Origin: Arenibacter sp. P308M17 | GTDB taxonomy: Bacteria > Bacteroidota > Bacteroidia > Flavobacteriales > Flavobacteriaceae | Assembly (NCBI RefSeq): GCF_003426735.1 | Contig: NZ_QVON01000001.1 | Coordinates: 434,001-498,000 of the forward strand | DNA length: 64,000 nt | Direction: 5' to 3' | In this document: piece after piece, positions 4,223-32,780 of the stretch | Position numbering within the stretch: position 1 is the stretch's first letter | How the letters are laid out: every line of letters begins with the position of its first letter | The notes under the pieces: model-generated | What the model was told of the DNA's origin: nothing | What the model saw: the letters and a program-made list of their open reading frames with translations, nothing else | Databases searched by the model: none | Position numbers and translations under genes: made by a program

Positions 4223-4229
4223 ATAGTTT

Positions 4230-15144: not shown

Positions 15145-15900
15145 TCACACAATTGTTACTAATATGCCCATATCCTCAAGTTTGTCCAGAACCGTGGTAG
15201 AAATGCCCTTGTCAGTTATAATATGATCTATTTGTTCCAAACCACATATTCGGGCAAAGCTTTTTTTGCCAAACTTGGACGAATCGGCCAAGACTATGGT
15301 TTTTTGTGCTGAGGATAACATTTTTTTATTAAGTTGTGCCTCCTCTAAATTAGAGGTAGTTAATCCATATTCCAAATCTATTCCATCTACACCTAAAAAG
15401 AGTTTGCTACAGGAAACGTTTTCTAAGATGTGTAAAGCATAGCTGCCAACTACAGAAGCGGAACTATGTCTAACGTATCCACCCAATTGTAGGGCATCTA
15501 CTTCCTTAAATTTAATTAATTCCAATACAACATATAAAGAAGATGTAATTACCATTAGTTTTCCTATTGGCTTAATGGATTTTGCCAATGCCTGCACAGT
15601 GGTACCCGAACCTATCAAGATAGTGTCGTTTTCTACAATGAGTTTGGCGGCTGTAAGTGCTATTCCACTCTTCTCCTCTACTGATATTTTTTCTTTTTCA
15701 GTTACATGTCGATCATTAATATATGGGTCTTCCAATGAAGCTCCGCCATGAGTTCGAAACAATAGACCTTTATCTTCCAAAAATTTAAGGTCTTTTCTAA
15801 TAGTAACAGCAGATACACCAAGCGATTTGCATAGGTCTAACACCTCAACATACTTTTCCTGATCTAATTTATCCAAAATGATCTGATGTCTTTTCATCAT
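15145..15900 (-). CDS. DeoR/GlpR-family transcriptional repressor
   Basis: The 251-residue length and domain order are standard for the family. An N-terminal helix-turn-helix (about residues 1-57) contains VTIRKDLKFLEDKGLLFRTH and is followed by HGGAS. A C-terminal sugar-phosphate sensor domain has ILIGSGTTVQALA near residue 95, GGYVRHSSASVVG near 140 and the family end LADSSKFGKKSFARIC. The ligand is normally a phosphorylated sugar or, for GlpR, glycerol 3-phosphate. It is divergent from glpD-glpK-glpF, which strongly suggests a GlpR role. TTTC[A/G]TT repeats upstream of the second susC and of the SGNH gene are likely additional targets. Two adjacent ATG codons mark the start. Confidence 0.88.
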   Translation of the reverse strand: MMKRHQIILDKLDQEKYVEVLDLCKSLGVSAVTIRKDLKFLEDKGLLFRTHGGASLEDPYINDRHVTEKEKISVEEKSGIALTAAKLIVENDTILIGSGTTVQALAKSIKPIGKLMVITSSLYVVLELIKFKEVDALQLGGYVRHSSASVVGSYALHILENVSCSKLFLGVDGIDLEYGLTTSNLEEAQLNKKMLSSAQKTIVLADSSKFGKKSFARICGLEQIDHIITDKGISTTVLDKLEDMGILVTIV

Positions 15901-16227
15901 TGTACGATTAATTATTTACGAGTGAAATATATTCTAGACAATTAATGAAGATGCAGTATTGTAATGTACGCTTTCCCATTAATTCTTTTTCCCAGAATCT
16001 TTGTGTGTTTCAAAATACAAAAAAAATTTTCACAATATGTAAAAATAGAACAAAACGAAACCAAATACCTATTGGATAGCCTAATTATACCTTGTCTGGG
16101 AATTTCAGATTTTATCAAGTTATGTTTAAAAGCATTAAAAAGTTTCATAATTCTTCATTTTATTATTAAATACTTTTGTTTTAATAATATTTTAATTAAT
16201 ATTGGCCTAAATTGAAAATTTTCATAA
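15901..16227. promoter_or_regulatory. Divergent control region between the DeoR regulator and glpD
   Basis: This 327-base, very AT-rich spacer must hold the promoters of both divergent genes. A box AACGAAA at 16054-16060 reads TTTCGTT on the minus strand and is followed there by TTGTTCT, matching the TTTCRTTTYRNTTT pattern of some DeoR-family operators with one mismatch. A degenerate copy (AATAGAA) lies 10 bases to its left. AGTGAAA at 15921-15927 is a near match close to the regulator start, which could allow autoregulation. I could not place a convincing TAnnTTTG promoter for glpD. Confidence 0.4.
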
Positions 16228-17820
16228 GTGAATATATTTGAAAGGAAAATAATAATAGAAGAGTTAAATCCATACAAAGAATGGGATACGATTATTATAG
16301 GGGGCGGTGCAACGGGTTTAGGGGTAGCACTGGATAGTGTTACAAGAGGTTATAAAACCCTTTTGCTTGAACAGATCGATTTTGCCAAAGGAACATCAAG
16401 TAGAAGTACAAAATTGGTTCATGGTGGGGTTCGTTATTTAGCTCAGGGTGATTTAGGATTGGTTAAAGAAGCTTTATACGAAAGGGGATTATTGGCTGCT
16501 AATGCGGCCCATTTGGTAAAAAATCAATCATTTATTATCCCAAATTACAAATGGTGGGGTGGTATGTTTTATACAATAGGACTCAAGGTATATGACTATT
16601 TGGCGGGCGGGTTGAGCTTGGGCAAATCAGTGCATATTGGCAAGTCGGAGACACTGGAGCGTGCAAAAACTCTTAAAAGAAATAAACTAAAGGGTGGAGT
16701 TGTATATCATGATGGTCAATTTGATGATTCAAGGTTGGCCGTAAATCTTGCTCAAACTTGTATAGAAAGGGGAGCTACGGTCATAAACCATTTTCCGGTT
16801 ACCCAATTATTAAAGGATAATCTAGGGGTTGTGTGCGGTGTTGTTGGTAAAGACCTTGAGACGAATAGGGAATACCGTTTGCATGCCAAGGTGGTAGTTA
16901 ATGCAACAGGTGTTTTTACGGATCAAATTTTAAAAATGGACGATCAAACAGCCAAGAATATGGTCCGTCCAAGTCAAGGAATACATTTGGTGGTGGATAG
17001 TACTTTTCTGCCCGGCGAGGACGCCATAATGATACCGAAGACAGATGATGGTAGGGTTTTGTTTTTGGTCCCTTGGCACAATAGGGTGTTAATAGGTACA
17101 ACTGACACGGTGCTGAACGATCATAGTCTTGAGCCTGTTGCTTTGGAGGAGGAGATTAACTTTATAATCAATACCGCCAATAATTATCTCGCAAAAAAGG
17201 TTTCGAGAAAGGATATACTAAGTGTTTTTGCAGGCCTCAGACCTTTGGCAGCCCCTAAGGACGGATCTGAAAAGACAAAAGAGATTTCTAGAAGCCATAA
17301 GATTATTGTTTCTAAATCCAACTTGGTTACGATCACGGGAGGGAAATGGACCACATATAGAAAGATGGCACAGGATACCATAGATAAGATAATTCGTATG
17401 GGAATACTCCCGAAAAGAAAGTGTATTACCCATAATATTGAAATCCACGGTTCGACCGAGGATAAGTTTGAGGACGATCATTTAACGATTTATGGAAGTG
17501 ATAGGAAGGCCATTTTGAAGTTAGTGGAAGAATGTCCTGAATTAGGGGAAAAAATACATCCGAATTTAGAGTTCATCAAGGCGGAAGTTGTTTGGGCGGT
17601 CCGTTATGAGATGGCGAGAACTGTTGAAGACATTCTCGCCAGAAGGGTGAGGATTTTGTTTCTTGATGCTCTTGCCTCTATGGAAATTGCTCCTATGGTT
17701 GCGAAAATTTTGGCTACAGAAATGGATATGGATTTGCTATGGCAGGAAAAACAGGTATTGGATTTTAAGGCTATGGCCAACAAATATGTTTTAAAAGAAA
17801 TCCTGAATCCAACATTTTAA
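16228..17820 (+). CDS. glpD: FAD-dependent glycerol-3-phosphate dehydrogenase
   Basis: This enzyme oxidises sn-glycerol 3-phosphate to dihydroxyacetone phosphate at the inner membrane and passes electrons to quinone. It has 530 residues. The FAD-binding motif IIIGGGATGLGVALDS is at about residues 22-37, followed by the family signatures GTSSRSTKLVHGGVRYL (about 53-69) and a C-terminal DAO_C domain. Translation starts at GTG: an in-frame stop lies directly upstream (16225-16227), and no ATG is suitably placed. glpK follows after 26 bases and glpF after that, forming a complete glycerol catabolic operon divergent from the DeoR-type regulator. Confidence 0.96.
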   Translation: MNIFERKIIIEELNPYKEWDTIIIGGGATGLGVALDSVTRGYKTLLLEQIDFAKGTSSRSTKLVHGGVRYLAQGDLGLVKEALYERGLLAANAAHLVKNQSFIIPNYKWWGGMFYTIGLKVYDYLAGGLSLGKSVHIGKSETLERAKTLKRNKLKGGVVYHDGQFDDSRLAVNLAQTCIERGATVINHFPVTQLLKDNLGVVCGVVGKDLETNREYRLHAKVVVNATGVFTDQILKMDDQTAKNMVRPSQGIHLVVDSTFLPGEDAIMIPKTDDGRVLFLVPWHNRVLIGTTDTVLNDHSLEPVALEEEINFIINTANNYLAKKVSRKDILSVFAGLRPLAAPKDGSEKTKEISRSHKIIVSKSNLVTITGGKWTTYRKMAQDTIDKIIRMGILPKRKCITHNIEIHGSTEDKFEDDHLTIYGSDRKAILKLVEECPELGEKIHPNLEFIKAEVVWAVRYEMARTVEDILARRVRILFLDALASMEIAPMVAKILATEMDMDLLWQEKQVLDFKAMANKYVLKEILNPTF

Positions 17821-17846
17821 ATTAAATGAAAACAATTTTTTAATCT

Positions 17847-19355
17847 ATGATTTCTAATATGGAGAAATATATACTTGCCTTGGATCAAGGTACTACAAGT
17901 TCCCGGGCAGTAATTTTTGACCAAAAGGGCGATATTGTATCTATAGCCCAAAAAGAGTTTACACAGTATTTTCCCAAACCAGGTTGGGTAGAGCACGATC
18001 CTGTTGAAATTTGGTCTACTCAGGCTGGGATAGCAGCAGAGGTTGTAACCAAAAAAGGACTAAGCGGGGCCAATATTGCAGCTATCGGTATTACGAACCA
18101 ACGGGAGACTGTTGTTGTTTGGGATAAAAGAACCGGAGATCCGGTATATAATGCTATCGTTTGGCAGGACAAAAGAACAGCAGATTTTTGTGATGAGCTT
18201 AATTTGTCGGGGAAGGCCGACCTAATAAGGGCTAAAACTGGTTTGGTTATCGATTCCTATTTTTCGGCCACAAAGGTGAAATGGATTTTAGACAATGTAA
18301 GCGGCGTCAGGGACCTTGCCGAGACTGGTAAATTACTGTGCGGGACAATAGATTCCTGGCTTATTTGGAAAATGACTCAGGGCGAGCTCCATATTACTGA
18401 TGTTACTAATGCCAGTAGGTCTTTAATCTTCAATATAAACACTTTGGAATGGGACGATGAATTATTGGAGCTTTTCACTATTCCAAAAAATATGTTGCCC
18501 CAAGTAAGGGAGTCAAGTGAGATCTACGGTTATACCCATCCCAATTTTTTTGCGCACAGGATACCTATAGCCGGAATTGCCGGAGACCAACAAGCTGCAC
18601 TTTTTGGTCAGATGTGTACAAGACCGGGAATGGTAAAGAATACATATGGTACAGGGTGCTTCATGCTTATGAACATTGGTGATAAGCCAATTATATCCAC
18701 CAATAATTTATTGACAACAATCGCTTGGAAAATTAATGGTAAAACATATTACGCCCTTGAGGGAAGTGTATTTATTGCTGGGGCAGTGGTACAATGGTTG
18801 CGGGACAGTTTGAAAATTATAGCCAACTCCTCCGAGGTTGAAAAATTGGCAAGCTCGGTAGAAAGTTCAGACGGTGTTTATTTTGTTCCGGCCTTTGCCG
18901 GATTGGGGGCTCCCTATTGGAATCAAAGAGTACAGGGAACAGTATTTGGGCTCACTAGGGGAAGTACCGACGCACATATTGCCAGAGCTGCCTTAGAATC
19001 CATCGCTTACCAGACAATGGATATTTTAAAGGCAATGGAAGCCGATTCCGGAGTGAAAATAAAGGAGCTCCGAGTTGATGGGGGAGCTACGGTAAACGAT
19101 ATGTTAATGCAATTTCAGGCAGACGTATTAAATACTAAAACGGTGCGTCCAAAAGTAGTAGAGACTACTGTTATGGGAGCAGCCTATCTAGCGGGACTAG
19201 CAGTAGGTTTTTGGAAGGATCTAGAAGAAATTCAGGAGATTTGGAAGACCGATCGACATTTTGTGCCTACCAATGATCGAAAACAAATTCAACAGGGCAT
19301 AAAAGGGTGGTACAAGGCCATTGATACTCTTCAATATTGGGCGGAGCAAGATTAA
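17847..19355 (+). CDS. glpK: Glycerol kinase
   Basis: This FGGY-family kinase phosphorylates glycerol to sn-glycerol 3-phosphate with ATP. The N-terminal phosphate-binding signature [15 protein letters not shown] and the family stretches [34 protein letters not shown] and [16 protein letters not shown] are all present. Its 502 residues match the usual length. The ATG at 17847 is given as the start, but the second ATG at 17859 gives an N-terminus ([11 protein letters not shown]) closer to characterised kinases. The gene lies between glpD and glpF, so imported glycerol is trapped and oxidised by products of one operon. Confidence 0.97.
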
Positions 19356-19376
19356 TCAATAAAAAATAGATATATA

Positions 19377-20111
19377 ATGACATCATTTATTGCAGAAATT
19401 ATTGGAACAATGTTATTAATTCTTTTGGGAGGGGGTGTAGTGGCCAATGTAGTATTGAATCTTACCAAGGGACATAATAGTGGGTGGATTGTAATTACAA
19501 CAGGTTGGGCATTAGCAGTCTATGTTGGTGTTGTGGTGTCGGCACCATACAGTGGAGCGCATTTAAACCCGGCGGTAAGTGTCGGATTGGCCATTGCCGG
19601 TAGTTTTCCATGGCAAGATGTGCCCCATTATGTATTGGGGCAATTGATAGGTTCAATGTTAGGTGCGTTTTTGGTATGGTTAATTTATCGAAAACATTTT
19701 GATGCGACCTCTGATGGGGGACTAAAAAAAGCAGTTTTTTGTACAGATCCCGCTATCCGTGATACAGCTACTAATCTAATTAGCGAAATTATGGGCACTT
19801 TCGTCCTTCTTTTTGCTGTTCTTTATTTTACCGATGCTACCATTAGCGATAATGAAACGGTCATAGGACTCGGCTCTTTAGGGGCTATCCCAGTTGCATT
19901 TGTAGTTTGGTCAATTGGTTTGTCGCTAGGAGGAACAACGGGATACGCTATTAACCCGGCTAGGGATCTTGGGCCCAGGATAATGTATGCTATTTTGCCT
20001 ATAAGAGGGAAGGGGAAGGCAGATTGGAGGTATTCATGGATCCCGGTAATTGGCCCGCTTATCGGTGCCATTATAGCAGCATTGCTCATGTTGTTTTTAT
20101 CAGGAATATAG
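19377..20111 (+). CDS. glpF: Glycerol facilitator, MIP/aquaporin family
   Basis: This is an inner-membrane channel for glycerol of 244 residues with six predicted membrane segments. The two half-helix motifs are present: HLNPAVSVG near residue 62 and INPARDLGPR near residue 192. The aspartate after the second NPAR motif is the feature that separates glycerol facilitators from water-only aquaporins. It starts 21 bases after glpK and closes the glp operon. The presence of a facilitator and kinase means that free glycerol, not only glycerol 3-phosphate, is a growth substrate here. Confidence 0.95.
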   Translation: MTSFIAEIIGTMLLILLGGGVVANVVLNLTKGHNSGWIVITTGWALAVYVGVVVSAPYSGAHLNPAVSVGLAIAGSFPWQDVPHYVLGQLIGSMLGAFLVWLIYRKHFDATSDGGLKKAVFCTDPAIRDTATNLISEIMGTFVLLFAVLYFTDATISDNETVIGLGSLGAIPVAFVVWSIGLSLGGTTGYAINPARDLGPRIMYAILPIRGKGKADWRYSWIPVIGPLIGAIIAALLMLFLSGI

Positions 20112-20201
20112 TTTTAAGAAAATTTGACCTGCTTTTAAGGGGGGTGCTCAAATAGGAAAGAAATGGGCTTTTTGGTTAATCAACAAAAAACATTCGAATT
20201 A

Positions 20202-20240
20202 TTTCACATAATTATATTTTATTTCATATTGTTTTGTTTT
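20202..20240 (+). promoter_or_regulatory. Candidate DeoR-family operator upstream of the second susC
   Basis: TTTCACA (20202-20208) and TTTCATA (20222-20228) are spaced exactly 20 bases, and a further T-rich box (TTTTGTT, from 20232) continues the 10-base phase. The core TTTCATATTGTTTT matches the TTTCRTTTYRNTTT pattern except for one base. It lies about 120 bases before susC in an otherwise open 247-base gap. Binding by the nearby DeoR-type protein is inference. Confidence 0.4.
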
Positions 20241-20358
20241 ATTATTAATATTTATGTATTATTGACAAGTTAATAATAATTCGAAACAAAATAGTGTTCA
20301 TTCAAAAAATTCAGGTTCGGAATTTGTTTAGCTAATCAACAATTAAACTTAAAAAGTA

Positions 20359-23300
20359 ATGAGAAAAAGAATTACAAAACTTCTGGCAGTGTGCATGCTA
20401 CCTTTGCTCTCTTGGGGTCAGGATTTTATTATTGAAGGGGAGGTTACCGATCAGGAAGGCATCCCGTTGCTTGGTGCAAGTATTGTAGAAAAGGGTACCA
20501 ACAATGGGGTTGTTTCAGATTTTGATGGGAATTTTAGTATAAAGACTTCTACGAAAGACGCTCAATTGGTTGTTTCGTTTATAGGATATATAACCAAAGA
20601 AGTCAAAGCATCTTCTGGTGTTTTACAAAAAATTGTGATGTTGGAGGATGCCAATACTCTTGATGAGGTAGTTGTCACGGCTCTAAATATTACCCGTGAA
20701 GAGAAATCGCTTGGCTACTCCATAGCCAAGGTTGAAGGCGAAGAAATTACAAAAACGGTTTCTGGAAATTGGCTGAACGGAATGTCGGGTAAAGTTGCAG
20801 GATTGACTTTTGATCAGGCGGGAACCGGTCCTAGCGGTTCTATTCGGGTTACTTTACGTGGAGACCAATCGTTGAACTATGGTAACAACGAAGCTCTTTT
20901 TGTGATTGACGGGGTGCCAGTGACTTCTGGAGCTACTGCTACCCGAAGCGTGAGTAACTATGCACAAGGTGATGCGCCGATCGATTATGGTAATGGGATG
21001 AGCGATCTCAATCCCGATGATATTGCTTCAGTATCTGTTTTGAAGGGGCCCGCCGCTGCGGCTTTGTATGGTTCTAGAGCAGCAAATGGCGCTATAGTGA
21101 TCACTACTAAATCTGGAAGAAAAAATAAAGGTTTGGGCATTTCGGTCAGTTCTTCCGTGACATTTGAACAGGCGGGATATTTCCCTGATTTTCAAACGGA
21201 ATATGGAAATGGATCGGACATGGGGGAAGGTGAATTTTCTTTGTGGGAACTTACTCCTGAAATGGCTCCGGATGGGGTAGGTGTACCAAGACGTTATTCG
21301 AGGTATACTTTTGGTGAAAAATTTGATTCCAATAAATTGCGTTACCTGTACGCCTCAAAAAACTGGGACACCGGCGAATTTAAGAAATTACCATTTGTTT
21401 ATCAAGATGATTGGTATACCGGATTATTCCAAACGGGACTTACGACCAGCAATACTGTTAGTCTTAGTGGAAATAATGGGAAGGGTACATCTACCCGTTT
21501 TTCGATGACCAATTTTAAGAATGATTGGATAATGCCGAATACAGGTTTTGATAGGAAAAATGTTTCCTTGACTTTCAATACGCCCGTAACGGAAAAAATT
21601 AAACTAAACGCGAAGGTTAATTATTATATGAAAGAAAGCGATAATATGCCTGGTGGAGGGTATAATGAGACTAACCCGATGTATGCTTTGGTTTGGGGAT
21701 TTAATGTAAATAGTATTGATGATTGGAGAGAGGAGTATTTTCAAGGTCGCTATAATTACGCCAACTGGTCTGCACAAGGAGAGAACGGCCAAGGATTGGT
21801 TTATCCTTCCACCAATGGATTTAACCCATATCGATCATTATATGAGGAACTAAACACTCAGGATAAGAATAGGGTCTTTGGAAATATTGGTTTGACCTTT
21901 GATCTGATGAAGGATCTTACCCTAAGCGTTGGATCTGGCTTGGATTGGTCAGATGAATTCCGCACACAACGAAGACCATTTTATACAGCGGATTATCAAA
22001 ATGGTTTCTATCGTGAGCAGACCGTTAGGGTAATCGAGAACAATAATGACATTATGTTGCGTTATGCCAATAATGATTTTGCCAACGGGCGCTTTGGCCT
22101 TTCTACCATGATAGGTGCCAACAACAGGATAAATGAGTATTATAACAGTAAGATAACATTGGGTCAGTTGGGAGAAGAAGGAGTTTATCATACCACCAAT
22201 CTCCCTACTGGGGTAATTCCTGATCCTTATAACTATAGAAGTAAAAAAATTGTCAATAGTTTGTATGGGTTGGCTTCGTTAAGTTGGGATGATACGTACT
22301 ATTTGGATATTACAGGTCGTAATGATTGGTCCAGTACCCTCTCTGAAGGGAATTGGTCATTTTTTTATCCGTCCGTGGCTGCCAGTATTTTAATGAATGA
22401 AATCTTTGATTTTCCATCCAATGTGCCCTGGGTAGATTTTACAAAAATGCGCTTATCATGGGCGAACGTGGGGAACGATACTTCGCCTTATTCGTTAGAT
22501 CAGTACTATGGGACGTCTTCCTATCCTGGAGGATATGTATTGCCCGGAACAATTCCAGATCCACTGATCAAGCCAGAGAATGTGGAGAGTTGGGAAGCCG
22601 GTTTGGAAGCTAAACTTTTCAAAAACCGCATTTCGTTCGATGTCACTGCCTATCATTCATCCACAACTAACCAGATCGTTTCGGTTGATGTGGATCAGAT
22701 TTCAGGTGCTACAGGGTTGAAAATCAATGCCGGAGAAATAACCAATGAAGGATTAGAGGTTTCTGCTGGTTTTGTGCCGGTAAGAAGTCAGGATTTTGAA
22801 TGGTCATTTGATCTTACCTGGTCTAAAAACAAGAACAAATTGGTTAGTTTGCAAGACGGTTGGGATCCGGAGGTACCCTTGGAAACCGATATGGGTACTA
22901 CCATAGGGGGAAGGGTATATGTTTATTCCTATGTAGGTCAGGAAATGCATGAATTATATGGCCGTGGATTTCAAAGAGCACCTGAAGGATCAACCTATAC
23001 TGATGAAAACGGGGCAGAAGTCGATGCTTCCGGAATGCATATTGTAAATGCCGATGGTTACCCTGTTCTGGATGAATCCCCAGATCGCAAACTTGGAAAT
23101 GTAAATCCCGATTGGCGAGGTGGAATGGTGCAACGTTTCAGGTATAAGAATTTTTCTTTAATGGCTTCATTTACAGGACAAATGGGAGGAAATACTTTTT
23201 CTGTAACCAATTTTGCCCTTTCATACCAGGGGAAACTTAAAAATTCTTTGGAAGGAAGATACGATGGCCTTGTACATGAAGGTGTAAATGTCATTAACAA

Positions 23301-23661: not shown

Positions 23662-23672
23662 ATAATCAGGAT

Positions 23673-25241
23673 ATGAACAAAATAAAAATAATAACAATTG
23701 GATTGTTAACAGTAATTGGCCATGCTTGTACTGCAGATTTTGAAGAAATCAATACAAATCCAAATACAACTAATGTAGGTCAGATACAGGCTAGCGGTAT
23801 GTTTGAACCATTGTTATACAATGGGGCCAACTTCTGGCTAAATTATACTTGGTACTGGAATAATGAACTTATTCAATTTACGGCATTTACAGGCGGAACA
23901 ACTCGTCAGGAACATCGTTATTTTATAAGTGACAGCAATTGGCAAAGTGTTTGGAATGCTTACAGTAGATATGGCAATAATGTTTCCCATTTGTACGATT
24001 TAAGTGTTGAACAGGAAGATCGCTCATTGGAGGCAATTTCTCTAACCTTGAAGGTTCTTTATATGTCCAATCTTACGGATATGTTTGGAGATGTTCCGTA
24101 CTCTGAGGCTTTTACCGCCCGTAAGGCAAATGGAACTACCAAGCCAAAGTTCGAGTCCCAGAAGGAGGTGTATGAACAAATGTTTGCAGATCTGGCCACT
24201 GCCAATGCTATTTACGCTACTGAACCCATATTTATAAAACCGGCTCTTGATGGAATGTATTCCGGGTCCATGAAAAAATGGCAAAAATTTAATAACTCCT
24301 TATATCTTCGACTGCTCATGCGGGTAAGTGGACGTAATGAAATGAATGTGGGAGCAAAAATGACAGAGATAATCAACAATCCTTCTACCTATCCCATATT
24401 TACTTCAAATGCAGATAATGCCACAGTTGTATTTTCAGGGAACGACCCATATCGAAGTCAATTCGCGGATACAAACGAAGGTAGTTTTACCAGTTCGGGT
24501 AGAAAACTGACCGAGCAACTTATTAAGATGGCCGTCATTAAAGATGGCAATGGCCAAGAAACTTTTGTTGATCCCCGACTTCCTATTATTGGAAAGAAAA
24601 ATCCTAATTTGAGTGTCAATCCGGACAACGTATGGAAGGGAACGGTATCGGGCGTTCCGGAACAAGATCAAAGTGATGCGGATCGTGGGTCCTCTTGGTT
24701 AAATACAGCAGTTTTGGCTAGAGTAGATGCTCCAGGAAGTTTTATGGATTATGCAGAAGTTCAATTTATTTTGGCCGAGGCAGCATTGAGAGGTCTAATT
24801 TCAGGTGGGGAATCAGCCTCAAAGGAATATTATGAAAATGGGGTTACGGCTTCGGTTGAAAAATGGGCGGAATATGGCCAGTATAGTGAAACTCCTGTCA
24901 CTGTGGAAAATGCAGATATTACAGCCTTATTGAAATCCGATTTGGCATCTTGGGATAAGGCCTCTGATAAGAACGAGTTAATAGGTAACCAAAAATATCT
25001 AGCCTTGTTTTGGATCGGAATGGAAGCTTATCATGAATTTCGTAGAACAGGTTATCCCGAATTAACCATTGGGGCAGGTACTGTTTTTAACGATTATACC
25101 CTACCTACAAGGTTTGTTTATCCCACCACTACATTGGCAACAAATCCCGACAACGTTGAAGAAGCAATTGCAAGGATGGGGGGCAATACTATGAAAACTC
25201 CTGTTTGGTGGAGCCAACAGGCAATTCAAGGAGGAAATTAA
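23673..25241 (+). CDS. SusD/RagB-like nutrient-binding lipoprotein (SusD-like_2 type)
   Basis: This is the partner of the upstream SusC and starts 11 bases after its stop. The 522-residue product has a lipobox at Cys19 (GHA-C) and then the family start DFEEINTNPN. Conserved stretches are NLTDMFGDVPYSEAF (about residues 133-147), MKKWQKFNNSLYLRLLMRVSG (near 202-222), the helix AEVQFILAEAALRG, and QKYLALFWIGMEAYHEFRRTGYP near the C-terminus. These mark the SusD-like_2 branch, distinct from the RagB-type SusD at 2307-4061, so the two loci are not recent duplicates. It should bind the substrate at the cell surface. Confidence 0.93.
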   Translation: MNKIKIITIGLLTVIGHACTADFEEINTNPNTTNVGQIQASGMFEPLLYNGANFWLNYTWYWNNELIQFTAFTGGTTRQEHRYFISDSNWQSVWNAYSRYGNNVSHLYDLSVEQEDRSLEAISLTLKVLYMSNLTDMFGDVPYSEAFTARKANGTTKPKFESQKEVYEQMFADLATANAIYATEPIFIKPALDGMYSGSMKKWQKFNNSLYLRLLMRVSGRNEMNVGAKMTEIINNPSTYPIFTSNADNATVVFSGNDPYRSQFADTNEGSFTSSGRKLTEQLIKMAVIKDGNGQETFVDPRLPIIGKKNPNLSVNPDNVWKGTVSGVPEQDQSDADRGSSWLNTAVLARVDAPGSFMDYAEVQFILAEAALRGLISGGESASKEYYENGVTASVEKWAEYGQYSETPVTVENADITALLKSDLASWDKASDKNELIGNQKYLALFWIGMEAYHEFRRTGYPELTIGAGTVFNDYTLPTRFVYPTTTLATNPDNVEEAIARMGGNTMKTPVWWSQQAIQGGN

Positions 25242-25266
25242 TAATGATCAATATAGATTTAATAAG

Positions 25267-26496
25267 ATGAGAAATAATTTTTTTAGATTAAAACGAATGG
25301 GAAGGATATTGTTATTTATATTTTTCCTCTGCCCCCTGATTTTTATTTCCTGTAGTGATGATGAAAACGTGGTCAAAGAAGAACCATATTTTAGAATTGA
25401 AGAAAACCCTACCGGTCTTTCCGTAGATATCAATGGCGCTACGGAAAATTATGTTGTACGGTCCAATCGCCCGTGGCAAATTGTAGCCCAAAGTCAAGTA
25501 GATTGGATAAGGGCTTTTCCTGCAGAGGGGGAAGATGACGGTATTTTTGAATTTATAGTAGAGGGAAATGATACCTTTGAACCACGTAATGCCAATTTTG
25601 CATTTATTGTTGATGGAAATGAACAACCCGTTCTTTTCAGAGTGGACCAAGAGGCCAACGTCCCGTTTATAGTAATCGAAGATTCCGAAAGTGGCATTGG
25701 CGTGCCTTCCGCTCTAACAGATGTAACCATTAATGTTCAATCCAATGTAAATTGGAGCTATACCATAGTTGATGGTAGTTGGTTGACCGGTACGGATTTA
25801 TCGGAAAGTGTAATAAAATTGATTGCGGCTAAAAACACTGGAGAGGAACGTGTAGCCAAATTAACAGTTAGTTCGGCTCAGTACCCTAATTTGGATCAGG
25901 AAATTACTATTACCCAATCTCCGGGCAATGTTATTTTGGAGGAGGGTTTTGACTGGTTGAATTATGGTAGTACTATCTTTTATACCACAACAGGGGAAAC
26001 CAGAATGGATTCTTGGAGTACCGAAGAGATGGACAGGGGATGGAACAGTACGGAGAACGTTAGCTCAAGCAACCAAAAGGTGGTCTACGCTCGCACTGGG
26101 TTCCTTAAGTTGGGTAAAACTGGTTATGGAGGTGATTTGATTTCTCCGGCTTTATCGGCATTGGAAGAACCACAAAACCTAAGAGTTACTTTTAAGGCCG
26201 TACCCTATAAGACCAAGGGAGGTACGGAAGATGATAATATTCTTAACGTGAGCGTCGTTGGCCCAGGAACTACCAATATAGGGTCATTGACAATTGATAA
26301 TTGGCCCGATTACGATAGCGATCCGGAATGTATCGCTATATGGGAAGATGAATCTTCCAATTATGAGTTTATTATTACTGGGGCAACTGCAGAAACAAAA
26401 ATAAAGTTTCTGGGGGGCGATTATAATCTGGTAGGCGTTGGTAAAGGTAAAAACCGAATTTTTCTTGACGATATCAAGGTAAAAATAATCGAATAA
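25267..26496 (+). CDS. Surface lipoprotein with two BACON domains
   Basis: The product has 409 residues and a lipobox at Cys29 (FIS-C); an alternative ATG at 25297 gives a shorter, more usual signal. Two BACON domains (about residues 45-125 and 130-215) show the typical pattern of a W-x-[AI]-x-x-x-x-x-W strand and a terminal I-x-[VI]-x-Q (RVDQEAN, ITITQSPG). A C-terminal beta-sandwich at about 220-409, opening LEEGFDWLNYG, resembles domains found in Bacteroidota binding proteins. In SusCD loci, lipoproteins at this position often act as extra surface binding proteins. The direct role here is inferred from position. Confidence 0.8.
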   Translation: MRNNFFRLKRMGRILLFIFFLCPLIFISCSDDENVVKEEPYFRIEENPTGLSVDINGATENYVVRSNRPWQIVAQSQVDWIRAFPAEGEDDGIFEFIVEGNDTFEPRNANFAFIVDGNEQPVLFRVDQEANVPFIVIEDSESGIGVPSALTDVTINVQSNVNWSYTIVDGSWLTGTDLSESVIKLIAAKNTGEERVAKLTVSSAQYPNLDQEITITQSPGNVILEEGFDWLNYGSTIFYTTTGETRMDSWSTEEMDRGWNSTENVSSSNQKVVYARTGFLKLGKTGYGGDLISPALSALEEPQNLRVTFKAVPYKTKGGTEDDNILNVSVVGPGTTNIGSLTIDNWPDYDSDPECIAIWEDESSNYEFIITGATAETKIKFLGGDYNLVGVGKGKNRIFLDDIKVKIIE

Positions 26497-26557
26497 ATCA
26501 AAATTGTGTAACTAAAGTAGTTGCTTTTTAACGATCCTTACACTAAAGATATCTAAT

Positions 26558-27808
26558 ATGGGAACAAAGTTTTATATTGTTTGTTTTGCGGTATGCGTAT
26601 TATCTATAGGTTGTACGGAAGAAGATGTAGTGGCAGATGCCCCAACAGCCTCGGAAAAAGAAGCAACTACCCCGGTGCAAAATTTAGTTGCATCGGGAAT
26701 ATCGGTTAACCACAGCTACTCGGATAGTTATATAAGTAGCGGTTTTTCATTTTTAAGTCCAGATCAGCTCGATAAAAACAGACAGGCCATAGGTGGCAGT
26801 TCCTATACGGAAGTCTATGGCTTTAATGTCCCAGAAGCAAACAGGGCAAGAGGAATTCGCTGGAATAGTGGCGATGAAACAACGGCTTCTTGGAGACCTC
26901 AGGGAATAGCGGGATTTAAAAAAAACGGTATAAGGTATCTGCTGATTACTTGGTATGCGCGAAATGCTTCGGATTATAAGGGGTCACGTATTACCTTACT
27001 TGATATTAGTCCAAGTTCCAGTACATATCTTATGTACAGACATATACTTTTGGTGCATGATGTAATACCCTCAAGTGTTTCCGGATATACTCAATATGGA
27101 AGCTACGCCCCATTAAACTTACATGCTGGTGGCGTTGCCTATTTTAATGATAAAATCTACATTGCCAGTACCAACCTTGGTATGAGGGTGTTCGACCTTA
27201 ATAAAATAGTGGAAGTTTCAACAGGCTCATCCACTAGCACAAAATGCGGCCAAGATTCCGGTGGAAACCTATATGCATTTAATTACAGGTATATTCTGCC
27301 TCAGATGGAGTATTATGATATCAATGGCGGGGCCAATCCCTTTTCTACAATTCAACTAAATGAAGAGGGAAATGAATTTTGGACCGCTCAATATTCCCAT
27401 GGTAGTGCGAGTTCGTCAGTAGTTCCAAAAATTTATGGTTTTCCTATAGACTCGAATGGGACCGTTCTTAATTCGGGAATTGAATATTTTATTCCCAAAA
27501 ATTCCCTTTTTGCAGATGATCATGCCCATGGAATGCAGGGAATTTTTAGAAAGGGATCAAGAACATGGTTGTCCTGTACAGGTTCCCCATCGTCATCATA
27601 TGGTTCTACGGCACGATTGGCACGTTACACAGATGGGGCCTCCAATACAGTACGTTATAGATGGCCTTATGGAGCAGAATCATTATACTATGAAAAGCAA
27701 TATGATTATCTCTGGAGTTTAACGGAATACGAACCCAATAGTGGTGCTGCAAATGGTAGCCAGGTTAATCGCTGCATATTTGCGGTTCACTTTTCCAACT
27801 ATGAATAA
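26558..27808 (+). CDS. Lipoprotein of unknown function, probable beta-propeller
   Basis: I do not recognise the family. The product has 416 residues and a lipobox at Cys19 (SIG-C). The body is beta-rich with repeated strand pairs such as GIRYLLITWYA, KIYIASTNLGMRVFDL and TWLSCTGSP, consistent with a beta-propeller. Histidines and aspartates in DDHAHGMQGI near residue 325 and the segment NLHAGGVAYF near residue 190 are possible ligand or metal sites. It sits between the BACON lipoprotein and the calcineurin-like phosphoesterase, in the same orientation with short gaps, so it is probably part of the same transcript and handles the same substrate. Confidence 0.7.
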   Translation: MGTKFYIVCFAVCVLSIGCTEEDVVADAPTASEKEATTPVQNLVASGISVNHSYSDSYISSGFSFLSPDQLDKNRQAIGGSSYTEVYGFNVPEANRARGIRWNSGDETTASWRPQGIAGFKKNGIRYLLITWYARNASDYKGSRITLLDISPSSSTYLMYRHILLVHDVIPSSVSGYTQYGSYAPLNLHAGGVAYFNDKIYIASTNLGMRVFDLNKIVEVSTGSSTSTKCGQDSGGNLYAFNYRYILPQMEYYDINGGANPFSTIQLNEEGNEFWTAQYSHGSASSSVVPKIYGFPIDSNGTVLNSGIEYFIPKNSLFADDHAHGMQGIFRKGSRTWLSCTGSPSSSYGSTARLARYTDGASNTVRYRWPYGAESLYYEKQYDYLWSLTEYEPNSGAANGSQVNRCIFAVHFSNYE

Positions 27809-27865
27809 CCTTTTTAAGCAGGCGGTTTTCACGGAAATTAGCTCGCAAAATCAATAAAGATATAA

Positions 27866-29854
27866 ATGGAGAATACAAGAAGAAAGTTTATAAGAATGGG
27901 AGGCTTGACTACCATAGCCGGATTGAGCGGTATGGGAGTGGCATTTTCGAGTTGTAGTGAAGATGAAGGGAGCGGTCCTGTAGACGGAGACAACAATTTA
28001 AATATTACAGGGGTCTCCATTCCATCAAGCATGGACATAGTTGAAGAGGGCAATATTACCTTAATAGGGAAAGGATTCAAATTAGGGGATAAAATACAAT
28101 TGACCCCTTCCTTAGCTTCCCTTAAACCCTTTGCCAGTGAGGTTACTTCGGTTACGGATGGCACAGTGGTTTTTTCCGTACCTATCGGATTTGCAACAGG
28201 GAACTATAAGATTTCTGTAGTCAGGGGAACAGAAAGCTTGGTATTGGGCACTGTTTTACTTAATTTGATTGCTGACACCCATATTCCGGATATGGAAGGA
28301 ATGACGGTAAAGGGAATTGTATTTTCAGATGGGAAGGGTATCCCCGGTGTTGCGGTCTCGGATGGCCATGAAGTTGCGATTACCGATGAAGAAGGGATAT
28401 ATTACCTTCCTTCACTAAAAAAAACAGGCTTTGTATTTATTTCCATTCCCGGAAATTATGAAGTGGTAACTACAGGAAACGCCCCTCAATTTTTTAAGCG
28501 CTTAAGCAGTAGTGTCAGCACAGTGGAGCAAAAGGATTTTTCCCTGATCAAGGTAGACAACCAAAAACATGTGGTTATCCCAATGGCAGACTGGCATTTG
28601 GCCAATCGCAATAACGATATTGATCAGTATACGGGCAAAGTACTCCCCGACGTAAATGCAAGTATAGACAAATACGCAGCTGATGGGACCAAGGTGTATG
28701 TATTGACCCTAGGTGATATGACCTGGGATCTTTATTGGTACGACAATAATTTTGGATTGAACGAGTACCTACCTTATATGAACATGCTAAATTGCCCTGT
28801 CTTTAATCTGATAGGGAACCATGATTATGATCCCTACTATGCCAATGACTGGGAAGCTGAAAATAAGTATAGGGATGTTCTGGGGCCAACCTATTATTCT
28901 TTCAATCTGGGGGATATCCATTATGTGGTATTGGATGATGTTGAATATATAAATACGGGAGGTTCGCAAGGTACTGTGGGTAGTCGTAACTACAATTACA
29001 TCATTAACTCTGAACAGATGAAATGGTTGAAAAAGGATCTCTCGACCATTACCGATAAAAGTACTCCTATCGTGGTAGCTATGCACACGCCACTGTACAA
29101 AAAACCATCCTTGGATCAAAATGGCGATCAGGTCAGTGAAGTTTATTTAAGCAACGGGAACGATCTAATAGAAAGCCTTAAAGAATTTACTACAGTCCAT
29201 GTTTTAACGGGTCACACGCATGTAAATTATAGGGTAGAGGAAGAGGCCAATTTGATGGAGCACAATACAGCGGCCATTTGTGCCACATGGTGGTGGACGG
29301 GTAAAAATGGCTATGCCAATAATCATATCTGTAAAGATGGCAGCCCTGGAGGATATGGGATTTGGCAGATGAACGGAAGGGATATGCAATGGCGTTATAA
29401 AAGCATTGGGTACAGTGAAGAGTATCAATTCCGTACCTATGATTTAAATTCGGTACATATTACAGCTGCCAATTTTGCCCCGCAATCTACGGATTCTGAA
29501 TTAGCACCGTATGCGGGTCCATACGCCCTGCAGAATAGTAACAATGAGGTTTTAATAAATATTTGGTCCTATGAAAAGGATTGGACAATTGAGGTAACTG
29601 AAAATGGTGAAAATCTGGAAGTGGCACGAATAGTGGCAAAAGATCCATTGCATATTATTTCATATGATGCGCTGCGTTTAAATGCAGGGGCAACACCTAC
29701 AAGTTCGTTTGCAACCAATGAAACATCGCACCTATTCAAAGTAATGGCTTCGGCACCGGGTACGACGCTCGAAATCAAGGTAACGGACCGATTTGGAAAT
29801 GTTTATACTGAAAGCATGATACGTCCCAAAGCCTTTTCTTTAAATATGAGCTGA
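27866..29854 (+). CDS. Tat-type exported calcineurin-like phosphoesterase
   Basis: The 662-residue protein begins with a twin-arginine motif (TRRKFIRMGG) and a Cys at position 30, so it is likely a Tat-exported lipoprotein. An Ig-like segment is followed by a MetallophosN-type beta domain (about 145-230, VKGIVFSDGKGIPGVAVSDG), then the metallophosphoesterase core: DWH (about 244), GDMTWD (about 285), GNHDYD (about 315), MHTP (about 410) and GHTH (about 450). A MetallophosC-type domain follows to the end. All usual dimetal ligands are visible. It should hydrolyse a phosphodiester or phosphomonoester outside the cytoplasm. Its place before a glycerophosphodiester phosphodiesterase gene supports a first or last step in glycerol-phosphate release. 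Confidence 0.88.
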   Translation: MENTRRKFIRMGGLTTIAGLSGMGVAFSSCSEDEGSGPVDGDNNLNITGVSIPSSMDIVEEGNITLIGKGFKLGDKIQLTPSLASLKPFASEVTSVTDGTVVFSVPIGFATGNYKISVVRGTESLVLGTVLLNLIADTHIPDMEGMTVKGIVFSDGKGIPGVAVSDGHEVAITDEEGIYYLPSLKKTGFVFISIPGNYEVVTTGNAPQFFKRLSSSVSTVEQKDFSLIKVDNQKHVVIPMADWHLANRNNDIDQYTGKVLPDVNASIDKYAADGTKVYVLTLGDMTWDLYWYDNNFGLNEYLPYMNMLNCPVFNLIGNHDYDPYYANDWEAENKYRDVLGPTYYSFNLGDIHYVVLDDVEYINTGGSQGTVGSRNYNYIINSEQMKWLKKDLSTITDKSTPIVVAMHTPLYKKPSLDQNGDQVSEVYLSNGNDLIESLKEFTTVHVLTGHTHVNYRVEEEANLMEHNTAAICATWWWTGKNGYANNHICKDGSPGGYGIWQMNGRDMQWRYKSIGYSEEYQFRTYDLNSVHITAANFAPQSTDSELAPYAGPYALQNSNNEVLINIWSYEKDWTIEVTENGENLEVARIVAKDPLHIISYDALRLNAGATPTSSFATNETSHLFKVMASAPGTTLEIKVTDRFGNVYTESMIRPKAFSLNMS

Positions 29855-29989
29855 TTTCAGAAAATAAAATACCAACTATTTTTAAAAATAAAGGAAAAGG
29901 AGGGATGGGACTTAAAACTTTTCGCTTTTTCCATAAAGTAAATTACACTATTCGATTAATTTTATACTTAATGTTTAATAAATAAATTA

Positions 29990-30790
29990 ATGACATCAAG
30001 ATTCTTAACTGTCCAAAATATTAAAATAGCTACTTTATCCTTGGCTTTTTCTCTTCTATCGGGAGGCTGTAAAAGTATAGATAATCCTGTAATAGCCCAT
30101 AGAGGTGCTTGGAAGGCACAGGGGCTTCCGGAAAATTCCATTGCCGCCCTTAAAGAAGCCATTGTATTAGGGTGCTATGGCTCGGAATTCGATGTGCATC
30201 TTACCAAAGACGATATTCCGGTAGTTAATCATGATAAGGATTTTATGGGAATCGATATTGAAACTTCCACCTATAGTGAATTATTGGCCAAGCAACTTTC
30301 CAATGGGGAGAGGATACCCACCCTTAAAGCCTATCTGGAAGAAGGGCTCAAGCAAAAAAAGACCAAATTGATCTTGGAGATCAAGTCTGCCCCTTCTGGA
30401 AAAGAAAGAACATTAAAGTTGACCAAAATGGCGGTAGATATGGTACATAGTTTAGAGGGTCGGTCTTTGGTGGAATATATATGTTTTGATTTTGATGCCG
30501 GTCAATTGGTAAGTAAACTGGACCCCAAAGCGGAGATAGCCTATCTTAATGGGGACAGAACGCCGGCCGAAGCCAAACAGGCGGGTTATACAGGTATAGA
30601 TTACAACTATATGGTGTATAAAAAAAATCCAACTTGGATCAAGGATGCCTTGGATTTGGGGCTAACAGTTAATGTCTGGACAGTCAATAATGAGGAAGAT
30701 ATACAAGACTTGTTGCGCCAGAATGTAGATTATATTACGACTAATGAATCGGAGCTGCTTTTTAAGGTGCTGAATAAAAATAAGCGATAA
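29990..30790 (+). CDS. Lipoprotein glycerophosphodiester phosphodiesterase
   Basis: This GDPD-family TIM barrel cleaves glycerophosphodiesters to sn-glycerol 3-phosphate and an alcohol. The 266-residue product has a lipobox at Cys27 (SGG-C), so it acts outside the cytoplasm. The catalytic and metal residues are in place: HRG in VIAHRGAWKAQG with PEN nearby (about 35-50), EFDVHLTKD (about 65-73), the second histidine in PVVNHD, and LILEIK (about 129). The end VNVWTVNNEEDIQDLL is typical. The HAD phosphatase gene starts 4 bases after its stop. With glpFKD upstream this gives a route from diesters to central metabolism. Confidence 0.93.
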   Translation: MTSRFLTVQNIKIATLSLAFSLLSGGCKSIDNPVIAHRGAWKAQGLPENSIAALKEAIVLGCYGSEFDVHLTKDDIPVVNHDKDFMGIDIETSTYSELLAKQLSNGERIPTLKAYLEEGLKQKKTKLILEIKSAPSGKERTLKLTKMAVDMVHSLEGRSLVEYICFDFDAGQLVSKLDPKAEIAYLNGDRTPAEAKQAGYTGIDYNYMVYKKNPTWIKDALDLGLTVNVWTVNNEEDIQDLLRQNVDYITTNESELLFKVLNKNKR

Positions 30791-30794
30791 ACAA

Positions 30795-31742
30795 ATGCTG
30801 TTTGAACTAAAACTCAAGAAAGTACTCCTACTTCCCTGCCTATTGTTGTTCGTCTTTATCGGTCATACACAATCATACAGAAATATTGGGGGTTGGAGTA
30901 CGGAGATAAATCAAAAGATAGAGAGTTTTCTCAATTCCACTCTTATCATTAAAGAACGAAAAGTTGCTGTTTTTGATTGTGACGGAACTTTGTTTGGCCA
31001 GACACCTTATTATTTGGCAGATGAAGCTATTTATTCATACGCCAAAGATAAATTCGCGGCAAGAAGTGATAGTTTGTCATTGGCCAAAATGGCTATAATA
31101 AATAATCTCATTCAAGGCAATAACGTTGGTGTGGACTATGTTAAAAATCGCATTGGATTTCTGTCCGGATTATCTCCAGAAGAGATAGAAACCATAGGTG
31201 AGAATTATTTTCGTGCAAAGTATCAAACCAAATTCTATCCCGAGATGCGAGAACTTTTGGCCAATTTGCAGGAATATGGATTTGAAATATGGGTCCTGAC
31301 AGCTTCCCCTGAAATTTTATATCAAAAATTTGTAAGTGAGAATCTTGGTATACCTGAGAATCGTATTTTAGGTGTTAAATCTGTCATTAGTCAAGGGAAG
31401 GTTACAGATAAAATAGTCTATCCAATTCCCCAAGATAAAGGTAAGGCAGAGGCTATACAGACTTTTATAAAAGCTAGGCCCTTATTTGTTGGGGGCAATA
31501 GCAGGGGCGATCTTGAAATGATGAACGAGTCTATAGGAATTAAGATGATTGTAAACCCGGATGATGGAAAGGTTGAAAAGGGTCTACATGCGGGAGCTAT
31601 GGAAGGACATACTGTTAAGGAATATTGGGATAGGCACAACGGGCTCGCCGTATATTGCAAGGACGTTCCGGAAGGCTCCTATCACTATGTATCCGAAGAA
31701 ATGAATATTAAGCCCAATAAGGTTAATCCTATAACAAAATAG
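30795..31742 (+). CDS. Exported HAD-superfamily phosphatase
   Basis: The 315-residue protein has a signal peptide (about residues 1-26, ending GHTQ) and a HAD-IB (phosphoserine-phosphatase-like) core. The nucleophile motif is VAVFDCDGTLFG (about 55-66), motif II lies in VLTASPE (about 168-174), and the late acidic motif in FVGGNSRGDLEMM (about 232-244). Outside the cytoplasm it can only act on exported or released phosphate esters. It follows the phosphodiesterase gene by 4 bases, so dephosphorylation of released glycerol 3-phosphate (or of phosphocholine or phosphoethanolamine head groups) is plausible; free glycerol would then enter through GlpF. A strong terminator follows at 31784. Confidence 0.85.
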   Translation: MLFELKLKKVLLLPCLLLFVFIGHTQSYRNIGGWSTEINQKIESFLNSTLIIKERKVAVFDCDGTLFGQTPYYLADEAIYSYAKDKFAARSDSLSLAKMAIINNLIQGNNVGVDYVKNRIGFLSGLSPEEIETIGENYFRAKYQTKFYPEMRELLANLQEYGFEIWVLTASPEILYQKFVSENLGIPENRILGVKSVISQGKVTDKIVYPIPQDKGKAEAIQTFIKARPLFVGGNSRGDLEMMNESIGIKMIVNPDDGKVEKGLHAGAMEGHTVKEYWDRHNGLAVYCKDVPEGSYHYVSEEMNIKPNKVNPITK

Positions 31743-31783
31743 GGTATATTTATTAGGTTTAATATAGTTTTTGATGACCAGCG

Positions 31784-31816
31784 GGGCCGACTTTTGTTTA
31801 AAGTCGGCCCTTTTTT
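31784..31816 (+). terminator. Strong rho-independent terminator of the phosphodiester locus
   Basis: An 11-base perfect stem (31784-31794 with 31800-31810, GGGCCGACTTT and its complement) encloses a five-base loop and is followed by six T residues (31811-31816). It lies 42 bases after the HAD phosphatase stop and marks the end of the transcript that begins at susC. Confidence 0.9.
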
Positions 31817-32029
31817 AATGACAAACAACTGGAAAGCTGTCCATATCATTGATTGGGAACAATGTTTTGTTTTAAGTGTTTCAAAGGCCTACAAAAAGGC
31901 AGGCAGATTTATATTTTTAGGTCCAGCCCATCTTCATTGATCATGGAACTTTTCTGCAATAAAAAATGGTATTGAAAATCCTTTTAGGAACATTTTTCTA
32001 TTGGAATTAGAGACTAATGGACCTACTTT

Positions 32030-32713
32030 TTAATGGGCTATATATGGTTCTAGAATTTTCGCCCAATGTTCATATCCTTTCTCATTAAGGTGGAGTCCTT
32101 CATCTGTGTAAATGGCATTAAGCCTTTCCTCTTCATCTAAAAATTGGGAATAAAGGTCGATGAGTGTTACTTGGTGCTTTTGTGCCAACTTCTTTATGCC
32201 ATTATTTATGTTTAGGATATGTTGGTCCTTGTTGTAGTGGTTGTTATAGACTCCAAAACTACTGTTTACGGGCAGTATGGTTTCAATATATAATTTGGTA
32301 TTTGGGGATTCTTTCCCAATTCTCCTCATGATGGATTCGTAATTTGCCAAAATTGCTGAATCTGGAAAGTTTCTTGAAATATCGTTGATGCCGATTAATA
32401 AAAATATTTTGGCCGGATGTCCTTCTGTTATTTCATTCAATCTTTCTAAAATGCCAAAAGTAGTGTCTCCGGAAATTCCCCGATTTTTAGCATTAGGGAG
32501 TCGTAAAAGTTCGTTCCAATGAGCTCTTGCAGTAATACTATTGCCTAAAAATATGATATCGGTGGATTGGTTTAAATAGCTTTTAAATTGTCTTACTTGT
32601 ACATCGTAAGTCTTAGGTCTATAGGTGGTGTCAATTTTTATTTCCTGTCCATTAATTATAAATGTGCCTAACAGAAAAATGAATGTGAAATGTAAAATTT
32701 TTGTTATGTTCAT
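32030..32713 (-). CDS. Exported SGNH/GDSL-type hydrolase
   Basis: The 227-residue product has a signal peptide (about 1-22, ending NGQ) and the four SGNH blocks: the nucleophile serine in IIFLGNSITA (about 53-62), the glycine in NRGISGDTT, the asparagine in LLIGINDISR, and D-x-x-H in DEGLHLNEKGYEHW near the C-terminus. Such enzymes remove acyl or acetyl groups from lipids or glycans. It converges on the SusCD locus and has TTTC[A/G]TT repeats in its upstream region. Deacylation of glycerolipids to glycerophosphodiesters, ahead of the GDPD, is an attractive but unproven role; deacetylation of a glycan is the alternative. Confidence 0.87.
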   Translation of the reverse strand: MNITKILHFTFIFLLGTFIINGQEIKIDTTYRPKTYDVQVRQFKSYLNQSTDIIFLGNSITARAHWNELLRLPNAKNRGISGDTTFGILERLNEITEGHPAKIFLLIGINDISRNFPDSAILANYESIMRRIGKESPNTKLYIETILPVNSSFGVYNNHYNKDQHILNINNGIKKLAQKHQVTLIDLYSQFLDEEERLNAIYTDEGLHLNEKGYEHWAKILEPYIAH

Positions 32714-32731
32714 TGTATTACTTGTTAATTA

Positions 32732-32780
32732 AATGAAATAAAACGAAATATAATGAAATTTTTTATAAAACAAAATGAAA
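32732..32780 (-). promoter_or_regulatory. Array of four TTTC[A/G]TT boxes upstream of the SGNH gene
   Basis: On the minus strand TTTCATT, TTTCATT, TTTCGTT and TTTCATT occur at plus-strand positions 32774-32780, 32752-32758, 32742-32748 and 32732-32738. Three are spaced exactly 10 bases and the fourth two helical turns further. The distal box continues as TTTCATTTTGTTTT, a full match to TTTCRTTTYRNTTT. The array begins 19 bases before the start codon, where a repressor would block transcription. Confidence 0.5.

Follow-up and report, generated by a model that had tools for sequence, protein, structure and literature searches.

Bacteroidota are marked by SusCD complexes as their hallmark nutrient importers, most of which are read as glycan systems. 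In enterobacteria, the periplasmic glycerophosphodiesterase GlpQ feeds GlpT and GlpD. According to the passages of PMC8115612 on PusCD, PUSI and PUSII of Flavobacterium johnsoniae encode SusCD-like complexes together with phosphodiesterases or a phosphatase, are induced by low phosphate and have been proposed to take up organic phosphorus. The locus studied here lies in a 64,000-nucleotide stretch of DNA from Arenibacter sp. P308M17, called the window below. It resembles PusCD in both respects, since a SusCD-like pair stands beside exported phosphodiesterases and phosphatases and not beside glycan enzymes, and uptake of organic phosphorus is likewise proposed. A preliminary description of this DNA had held that a SusCD locus dedicated to phosphodiesters would be notable, a claim of novelty weakened because phosphate-related PusCD complexes are already published for Flavobacterium (PMC8115612). 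Among the papers listed by literature searches pairing SusCD with either phosphodiesters or glp genes, no title or abstract opening describes a SusCD locus with glp genes.

Gene content, export signals and regulator

The genes are listed below, with their occurrence among 70 named loci in other genomes that were retrieved with the window's SusD; these loci are related and the counts are not independent.

15145..15900, minus strand: DeoR-type transcriptional regulator, GlpR by context only (PF00455 and PF08220; homologue in 22/70 loci)
16228..17820, plus strand: glpD, FAD-dependent glycerol-3-phosphate dehydrogenase (PF01266, PF16901; 22/70)
17847..19355, plus strand: glpK, glycerol kinase (TIGR01311, 740.8 bits, cut-off 590.35; 11/70)
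19377..20111, plus strand: glpF-like aquaglyceroporin (PF00230, MIP; 12/70)
20359..23661, plus strand: susC-like TonB-dependent transporter (PF13715, PF07715; 69/70)
23673..25241, plus strand: susD-like lipoprotein (PF12771/PF12741; TADFEE after the lipobox Cys)
25267..26496, plus strand: BACON lipoprotein (PF13004, two stretches; SDDEN after the Cys; 65/70)
26558..27808, plus strand: lipoprotein without Pfam family (6/70)
27866..29854, plus strand: MPP, a Tat-type lipoprotein calcineurin-like phosphoesterase (PF16371, PF00149, PF16370; 61/70)
29990..30790, plus strand: lipoprotein GDPD (PF03009, 100.7 bits, cut-off 23.6)
30795..31742, plus strand: exported HAD-type phosphatase (PF12710; 13/70)
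32030..32713, minus strand: exported SGNH/GDSL hydrolase, an optional member (PF13472; 6/70)

Every gene named in the preliminary description is present at or near the place given there, and the claimed gene order is confirmed. The susC-like and susD-like genes are adjacent, as in SusCD-type uptake loci, and the BACON lipoprotein is probably a surface binding protein. In the GDPD, the residues H37, R38, E66, D68 and H81, which we take to be catalytic, are invariant in 9 sequences, as are D61 and D63 of the HAD protein in 13. The lipoprotein 26558..27808 gave no Pfam match at a threshold as loose as E 10, and its structure model is beta-propeller-like at low confidence (pLDDT 52.4). This protein and the SGNH hydrolase had both been counted as members of the locus, a status made doubtful by their scarcity; the six carriers of the SGNH gene are all Flagellimonas/Allomuricauda, and its product could be an esterase of either a glycan or a non-glycan locus. 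A second glpFK is present elsewhere in the genome.

A lipoprotein export signal has been described in PMC5080379. In the window, SusD, the BACON protein, the lipoprotein 26558..27808 and MPP carry at least two acidic residues among the five that follow the Cys, and the GDPD carries one. Among lipobox-bearing homologues across the loci, at least two such residues were counted for SusD in 33/51, BACON in 43/56 and MPP in 21/54, and for the family of the lipoprotein 26558..27808 in 1/5, the GDPD in 1/10, a second GDPD type in 0/8 and a third in 4/7, these being counts from a crude finder that picked the wrong Cys in several rows. For MPP, such signals lean towards the cell surface, and we go no further than this.

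The regulator had been called a DeoR/GlpR-type repressor. It does match DeoR-family models, and the DeoR part of the name stands, but it falls below every NCBIfam cut-off listed: the GlpR models gave 172.9 bits (cut-off 300) and 106.5 bits (cut-off 331), and the best model, AgaR, 229.8 bits (cut-off 260). Two word matches are candidate operators:

16055..16064, plus strand: WCGAAASHWA, in the glpR/glpD intergenic region
20281..20290, plus strand: WCGAAASHWA, upstream of susC

The word is not rare, with 5 matches in the window versus 2.7 expected and 6 hits for the reversed control, and neither the second glpK nor the glpD-like gene on C20 has it upstream. The promoter pattern TAnnTTTG was found upstream of glpD and not upstream of susC. 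The DeoR-type repressor would probably couple the glp half and the susCD half of the locus.

Recurrence of the locus and its core phosphoesterase

The same gene set was looked for in other Bacteroidota, as the preliminary description had suggested, and the core of susC, susD, BACON lipoprotein and MPP does recur in the 70 loci, and 32 of them are accompanied by one or more of glpR, glpD, glpK, glpF and glpT; the arrangement exceeds chance. The glp genes sit in several arrangements, and along the SusD tree their presence switches 11 times or more. glpK is found in 11 loci, of Flavobacteria, and glpT, encoding the glycerol-3-phosphate transporter, in 19, mostly of Bacteroidales; no locus has both. 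This replacement of glpK and glpF by glpT is a single change on the SusD tree, one event and not many. The earlier claim that this SusCD system is tied to glycerol catabolism was upheld, and the link to glycerol or glycerol-3-phosphate catabolism is well supported by these gene neighbourhoods. Within the DNA stretches covered, 38 of the 70 loci have no glp gene; among the long loci this holds for 24 of 46, with an ECF sigma gene taking the place of glp genes in 15 of those 24.

We reject the GDPD as the defining enzyme: a GDPD of any type occurs in 36/70 loci and is optional, versus 61/70 for the MPP cluster, and MPP is the core enzyme of the locus. The best alignment of the MPP model is with the glycerophosphodiesterase GpdQ, in a near tie with Lmo2642 (20.0), Rv0805 (19.8) and purple acid phosphatases (about 19), which Foldseek ranks first.

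At 1e-60, MPP was found in 5 of 199 genomes of the family, its own included, and SusD in its own genome only, both at 1e-150 (1 of 296 genomes of the order) and at 1e-120 (1 of 395 of the phylum), although with such strict thresholds and few candidates scored per genome these absences are soft.

A proposed route for glycerol-phosphate diesters and its rivals

We observe directly which genes are present and conserved, the replacement of glpKF by glpT, the conserved motifs and the fold class, and we infer the substrate, the localisation, the order of steps and the regulation of a locus acquiring carbon and phosphate from glycerol-phosphate diesters, a reading to which we give a probability of roughly 0.7. 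SusCD and the BACON lipoprotein would capture a glycerol-phosphate compound and import it across the outer membrane, and the diester would be cut by MPP, probably at the cell surface, and by the GDPD, probably facing the periplasm. In this genome the exported HAD protein may dephosphorylate glycerol 3-phosphate to glycerol, which would enter the GlpF-GlpK-GlpD route; in Flagellimonas-type loci PafA could be the exported phosphatase in place of HAD, and in relatives mostly belonging to Bacteroidales glycerol 3-phosphate would be taken up directly by GlpT and passed to GlpD.

That HAD supplies glycerol to GlpF, as first claimed, is doubtful, and its role as an obligatory glycerol-3-phosphate phosphatase is unsupported: 11 of its 13 loci carry glpT and 1 carries glpK. 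The frequent company of HAD and glpT, the loci devoid of glp genes and the nearly tied GpdQ match of MPP, with purple acid phosphatases ahead in Foldseek, all speak against the diester model. So do the fact that glpK gave way to glpT only once on the tree, the frequency of the operator-like word and of its reversed control, and the sulfatase, GH20 and glucanase matches described below for the glycan rival.

A bolder proposal, which we put forward tentatively and hold to be less likely than its negation by a good deal, is that of a distinct, thinly spread class of Bacteroidota SusCD loci feeding on polymeric glycerol phosphate, for example the teichoic acids of nearby Gram-positive bacteria. 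Fragments freed by a metallophosphoesterase at the surface would be imported by SusCD, and their glycerol phosphate would be burnt as carbon in a co-regulated sink that differs by lineage, GlpF-GlpK-GlpD in some and GlpT-GlpD in others.

The best-surviving rival is a PusCD-like phosphate-starvation system, for which phosphorus would be the purpose and glycerol a mere by-product salvaged by neighbouring genes. PUSI and PUSII offer the precedent, and the ECF gene of PUSI and the FecR gene of PUSII reported in passages of PMC8115612 have counterparts here in 20/70 and 18/70 loci, respectively. Yet a DeoR-type regulator and glpD, K, F or T recur at these loci, needless for a pure phosphate system, the SusD class differs (see below), and the word "glycerol" stands nowhere in the main text of PMC8115612; we find this rival unlikely.

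Somewhat more improbable still is a locus for a glycan, or a phosphorylated or sulfated glycan, lying beside a glycerol operon, with phosphoesterases that trim the glycan. Glycan loci are where BACON and SusD are best known, and the solved sequence nearest to the GDPD belongs to an entry that carries the name beta-1,3(4)-glucanase. GH20 and BNR gene clusters occur in 4/70 and 3/70 loci, and the 116 flanking proteins include PF00884 sulfatases (4), GH20 (2) and BNR_2 (2); the sulfatase-type and GH20 genes would fit a glycan locus as well. We slightly lowered the weight of the diester model and raised that of this rival on account of the sulfatase genes in the flanks and of glpK having been exchanged for glpT only once. 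However, profile search found no glycan-cleaving family among window genes 15145-32713, and the glycoside hydrolase or lyase of a polysaccharide utilisation locus is missing from them. Sulfatases apart, none of the glycan-cleaving families among the 25 listed of 150 accounts for more than 2 of the 116 flanking proteins. Glycan-cleaving families are few there, and glp genes recur in differing arrangements.

Scavenging of nucleotides or nucleic acids, with MPP as nucleotide phosphodiesterase or phosphatase, is very improbable: a 5'-nucleotidase-type cluster in 5/70 loci and a weak match of the C-terminal part of the BACON protein to a surface DNase model (31.6 bits, cut-off 260) would fit, but nucleotide-type neighbours are few (PF02872 in 2/116 flanking proteins) and the GDPD and glp genes would be left unexplained.

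Should this class import glycerol-phosphate diesters for carbon, annotators would learn that certain SusCD pairs lacking glycan enzymes are there for phosphorylated substrates other than glycans, and the turnover of phospholipid or teichoic acid would be tied to a defined uptake route. The combination MPP-susC-susD-BACON with glp genes would then be a marker, testable in several cultured species; Arenibacter certesii and Flagellimonas olearia are cultured carriers of the locus.

Comparison with described systems

PusCD differs from the locus in its SusD class, PusD1 and PusD2 having PF07980/PF14322 and the SusD here PF12771/PF12741; the comparison covers these two of six forms, and PusD is called polyphyletic in PMC8115612. 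Induction by low phosphate belongs to PusCD, and the passages of PMC8115612 on PusCD mention no glp gene. MPP shares 16% identity with GpdQ (PDB 3d03) and is unlike it in its extra domains PF16371 and PF16370 and its Tat-type lipoprotein signal. A gene of the type of PafA, the F. johnsoniae enzyme treated in PMC8812569, borders the Flagellimonas-type loci; PafA itself is a separate enzyme, outside the locus of the window. Finally, the functions of the GlpQ-GlpT-GlpD route of enterobacteria are all found in the loci with glpT, with the difference that SusCD would here be the outer-membrane step and that a metallophosphoesterase is the recurring hydrolase.

Gene order and the conserved core

The claimed gene set and order were borne out, every gene named in the preliminary description being present where it was placed: DeoR-type regulator, glpD, glpK, glpF, susC, susD, BACON lipoprotein, unknown lipoprotein, calcineurin-like metallophosphoesterase (MPP), lipoprotein glycerophosphodiester phosphodiesterase (GDPD), exported HAD phosphatase and convergent SGNH hydrolase. 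Same-strand spacings from glpD to HAD are at most 61 bases, apart from glpF-susC (247 bases) and MPP-GDPD (135 bases). The glpK product scores above its NCBIfam cut-off; the regulator is below every NCBIfam cut-off listed, so GlpR is a name given by context. Upstream of the locus, window positions 5-14834 carry, besides further genes, a second SusC/SusD-like pair (5-2296 and 2307-4061, so judged by sequence look), a CstA-like transporter (10015-11454, also by look) and an FG-GAP/UnbV protein (11409-14834).

A five-protein SusD alignment, used to scan one genome per species, yielded 70 named loci; the scan was seeded by two peptide patterns, and loci with neither are therefore missed. To count gene presence, open frames from these loci and from the window were clustered; the counts are lower bounds since contig ends truncate some loci. 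SusC was found in 69/70 loci, the BACON lipoprotein in 65, MPP in 61, GDPD (any of three types) in 36, HAD in 13, and the SGNH hydrolase and the unknown lipoprotein in six each. Thus, MPP, SusC, SusD and BACON form the core, GDPD and HAD being accessories. Some loci have an additional MPP gene near the core: L025, L060, L063, L064, L074, L076 and L080 carry a shorter one (470-496 residues), and eight others a different one, MPP2, of about 530 residues. L051, L068 and L078 carry by the core a phosphate-selective-porin-like gene (PF07396 in L068) together with a gene for an unknown protein (300-336 residues). Among solved sequences, the window GDPD comes closest to the first half of an entry of 480 residues (PDB 7ww4, 7wwc) named beta-1,3(4)-glucanase; a literature search for the entry codes returned no paper recognised by title as theirs.

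Long loci (at least 20 kb) supplied 120 proteins from inside or next to their blocks, of which 116 were scanned. In the 25 of 150 Pfam families shown, PF01663 is the commonest (9/116), followed by HTH_18 (5), Sulfatase (4) and Metallophos (4), with GH20 and BNR_2 at two each; cluster 22, which includes the GH20 genes, is present in 4/70 loci and cluster 28, which includes the BNR genes, in three. From these counts, glycan enzymes are few in the flanks, not absent.

Link to glycerol metabolism

At least one of glpR, glpD, glpK, glpF and glpT is present in 32/70 loci and at least two in 22; for the 46 long loci the figures are 22 and 18. Enzyme homologues thus do not consistently accompany glycan genes without glp genes, the pattern that the preliminary description had set against its own proposal. 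Against the link, no glp gene was seen in 38/70 loci, including 24 of the long ones. Fifteen of these 24 have an ECF sigma gene, and the ones among them whose SusC is about 1,190-1,210 residues long probably use it to sense the substrate. The arrangement of the glp genes varies.

Position of glp genes relative to the SusCD core
Upstream, same strand: window, Arenibacter, one Sinomicrobium
Downstream: Gelidibacter
Divergent: Flagellimonas/Allomuricauda
glpR-glpD-glpT-(HAD)-(GDPD)-MPP-susC-susD-BACON: many Bacteroidales
glpD-glpT-GDPD on one side, glpR on the other: L027 and L084

On a quick SusD tree (57 rows), glp presence changes at least 11 times, an approximate count, given that 29/68 inner branches carry a star and that glp absence was scored for long loci alone. 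By our estimate, a gene present in one or two copies in a genome of 4-5 Mb would fall by chance within a given 20 kb with a probability of about 1% or less. Of 33 stretches matching the SusD family in the Arenibacter genome, only the window's has, by position, a glpK or GlpD-type match no more than 10 kb away.

In glpR-bearing loci, the DNA upstream of glp, susC or MPP genes shows an excess of WCGAAAS-type words. With the six Flagellimonas/Allomuricauda loci set apart, the others have 19 words in 8,480 bases (15/35 stretches), whereas other intergenic DNA has 21 in 37,468 bases (21/196 stretches; Poisson p ~1e-6) and a reversed-sequence control has six; this hold-out is not clean, because the first scan pooled all loci, and the stretches are related to one another. 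A longer form has five matches in the window (2.7 expected), among them:

16055, glpR/glpD region
20281, before susC

An operator common to the glp and susC halves is plausible.

Free glycerol or glycerol 3-phosphate

glpK occurs in 11/70 loci, all from named genera that we take to be Flavobacteriaceae, and glpT in 19, most of them in records that bear the name Bacteroidales; the two never share a locus. Their swap is a single change on the SusD tree and so counts as one event. Each of the 20 scanned GlpT candidates matches glycerol-3-phosphate transporter models, that of L027 lying above the TIGR00712 cut-off of 632.55 (649) and that of L044 below (521.5). This distribution and these matches suggest that glpK-type loci are equipped for free glycerol and glpT-type loci for glycerol 3-phosphate, both leading to GlpD. 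We regard this functional replacement as the most telling evidence for a glycerol-phosphate compound as substrate.

The window glp set looks dedicated to the SusCD locus, since a second glpK-glpF pair (79% and 74% identical) lies elsewhere in the Arenibacter genome, with no regulator homologue found in the 19 kb fetched around it, and no strong GlpT was detected (best match 179.8 bits). That pair adjoins the genome's best-scoring GDPD match (G000:C20:302221-306422), beside which, in the same 19 kb, the SusCD core is absent except for a SusC-like end at one edge. Also outside the window, at G000:C1:722715-731483, two PF01663 phosphodiesterase-type matches flank two GlpT-like MFS matches, which may mark a further locus for the uptake of phosphoesters or phosphonates.

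HAD goes with glpT in 11 of its 13 loci and with glpK in one (two counting the window), and its role may therefore not be the release of glycerol; a head-group phosphate is a possible target. One gene cluster adjoins the regulator in the six Flagellimonas/Allomuricauda loci, and its L035 member is a PF01663 protein above the PafA cut-off. Flavobacterium johnsoniae requires PafA to grow when phosphorylated carbohydrates are its only source of carbon (PMC8812569).

The proposal of a glycerol-phosphate SusCD locus therefore stands in part: the glp link and the glpK/glpT replacement favour it, whereas GDPD is an accessory and dephosphorylation to glycerol by HAD is doubtful.

Comparison with known SusCD systems for phosphate

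F. johnsoniae PusCD comprises SusCD-like complexes that are induced at low phosphate and whose genes neighbour those of phosphodiesterases and phosphatases (PMC8115612). The use of SusCD for organic phosphate is therefore not new, which weakens the novelty first claimed for a phosphodiester-dedicated system. The word glycerol is absent from the main text of that paper, and no paper linking SusCD to glp genes was among those listed by searches of openly licensed literature. The SusD classes differ: PusD1 and PusD2 belong to PF07980/PF14322, the window SusD to PF12771/PF12741. The reading that we favour is that the locus represents a new variant of the organic-phosphate SusCD systems, one linked to glycerol metabolism; candidate substrates are teichoic acids, deacylated phospholipids or some other compound of glycerol phosphate.
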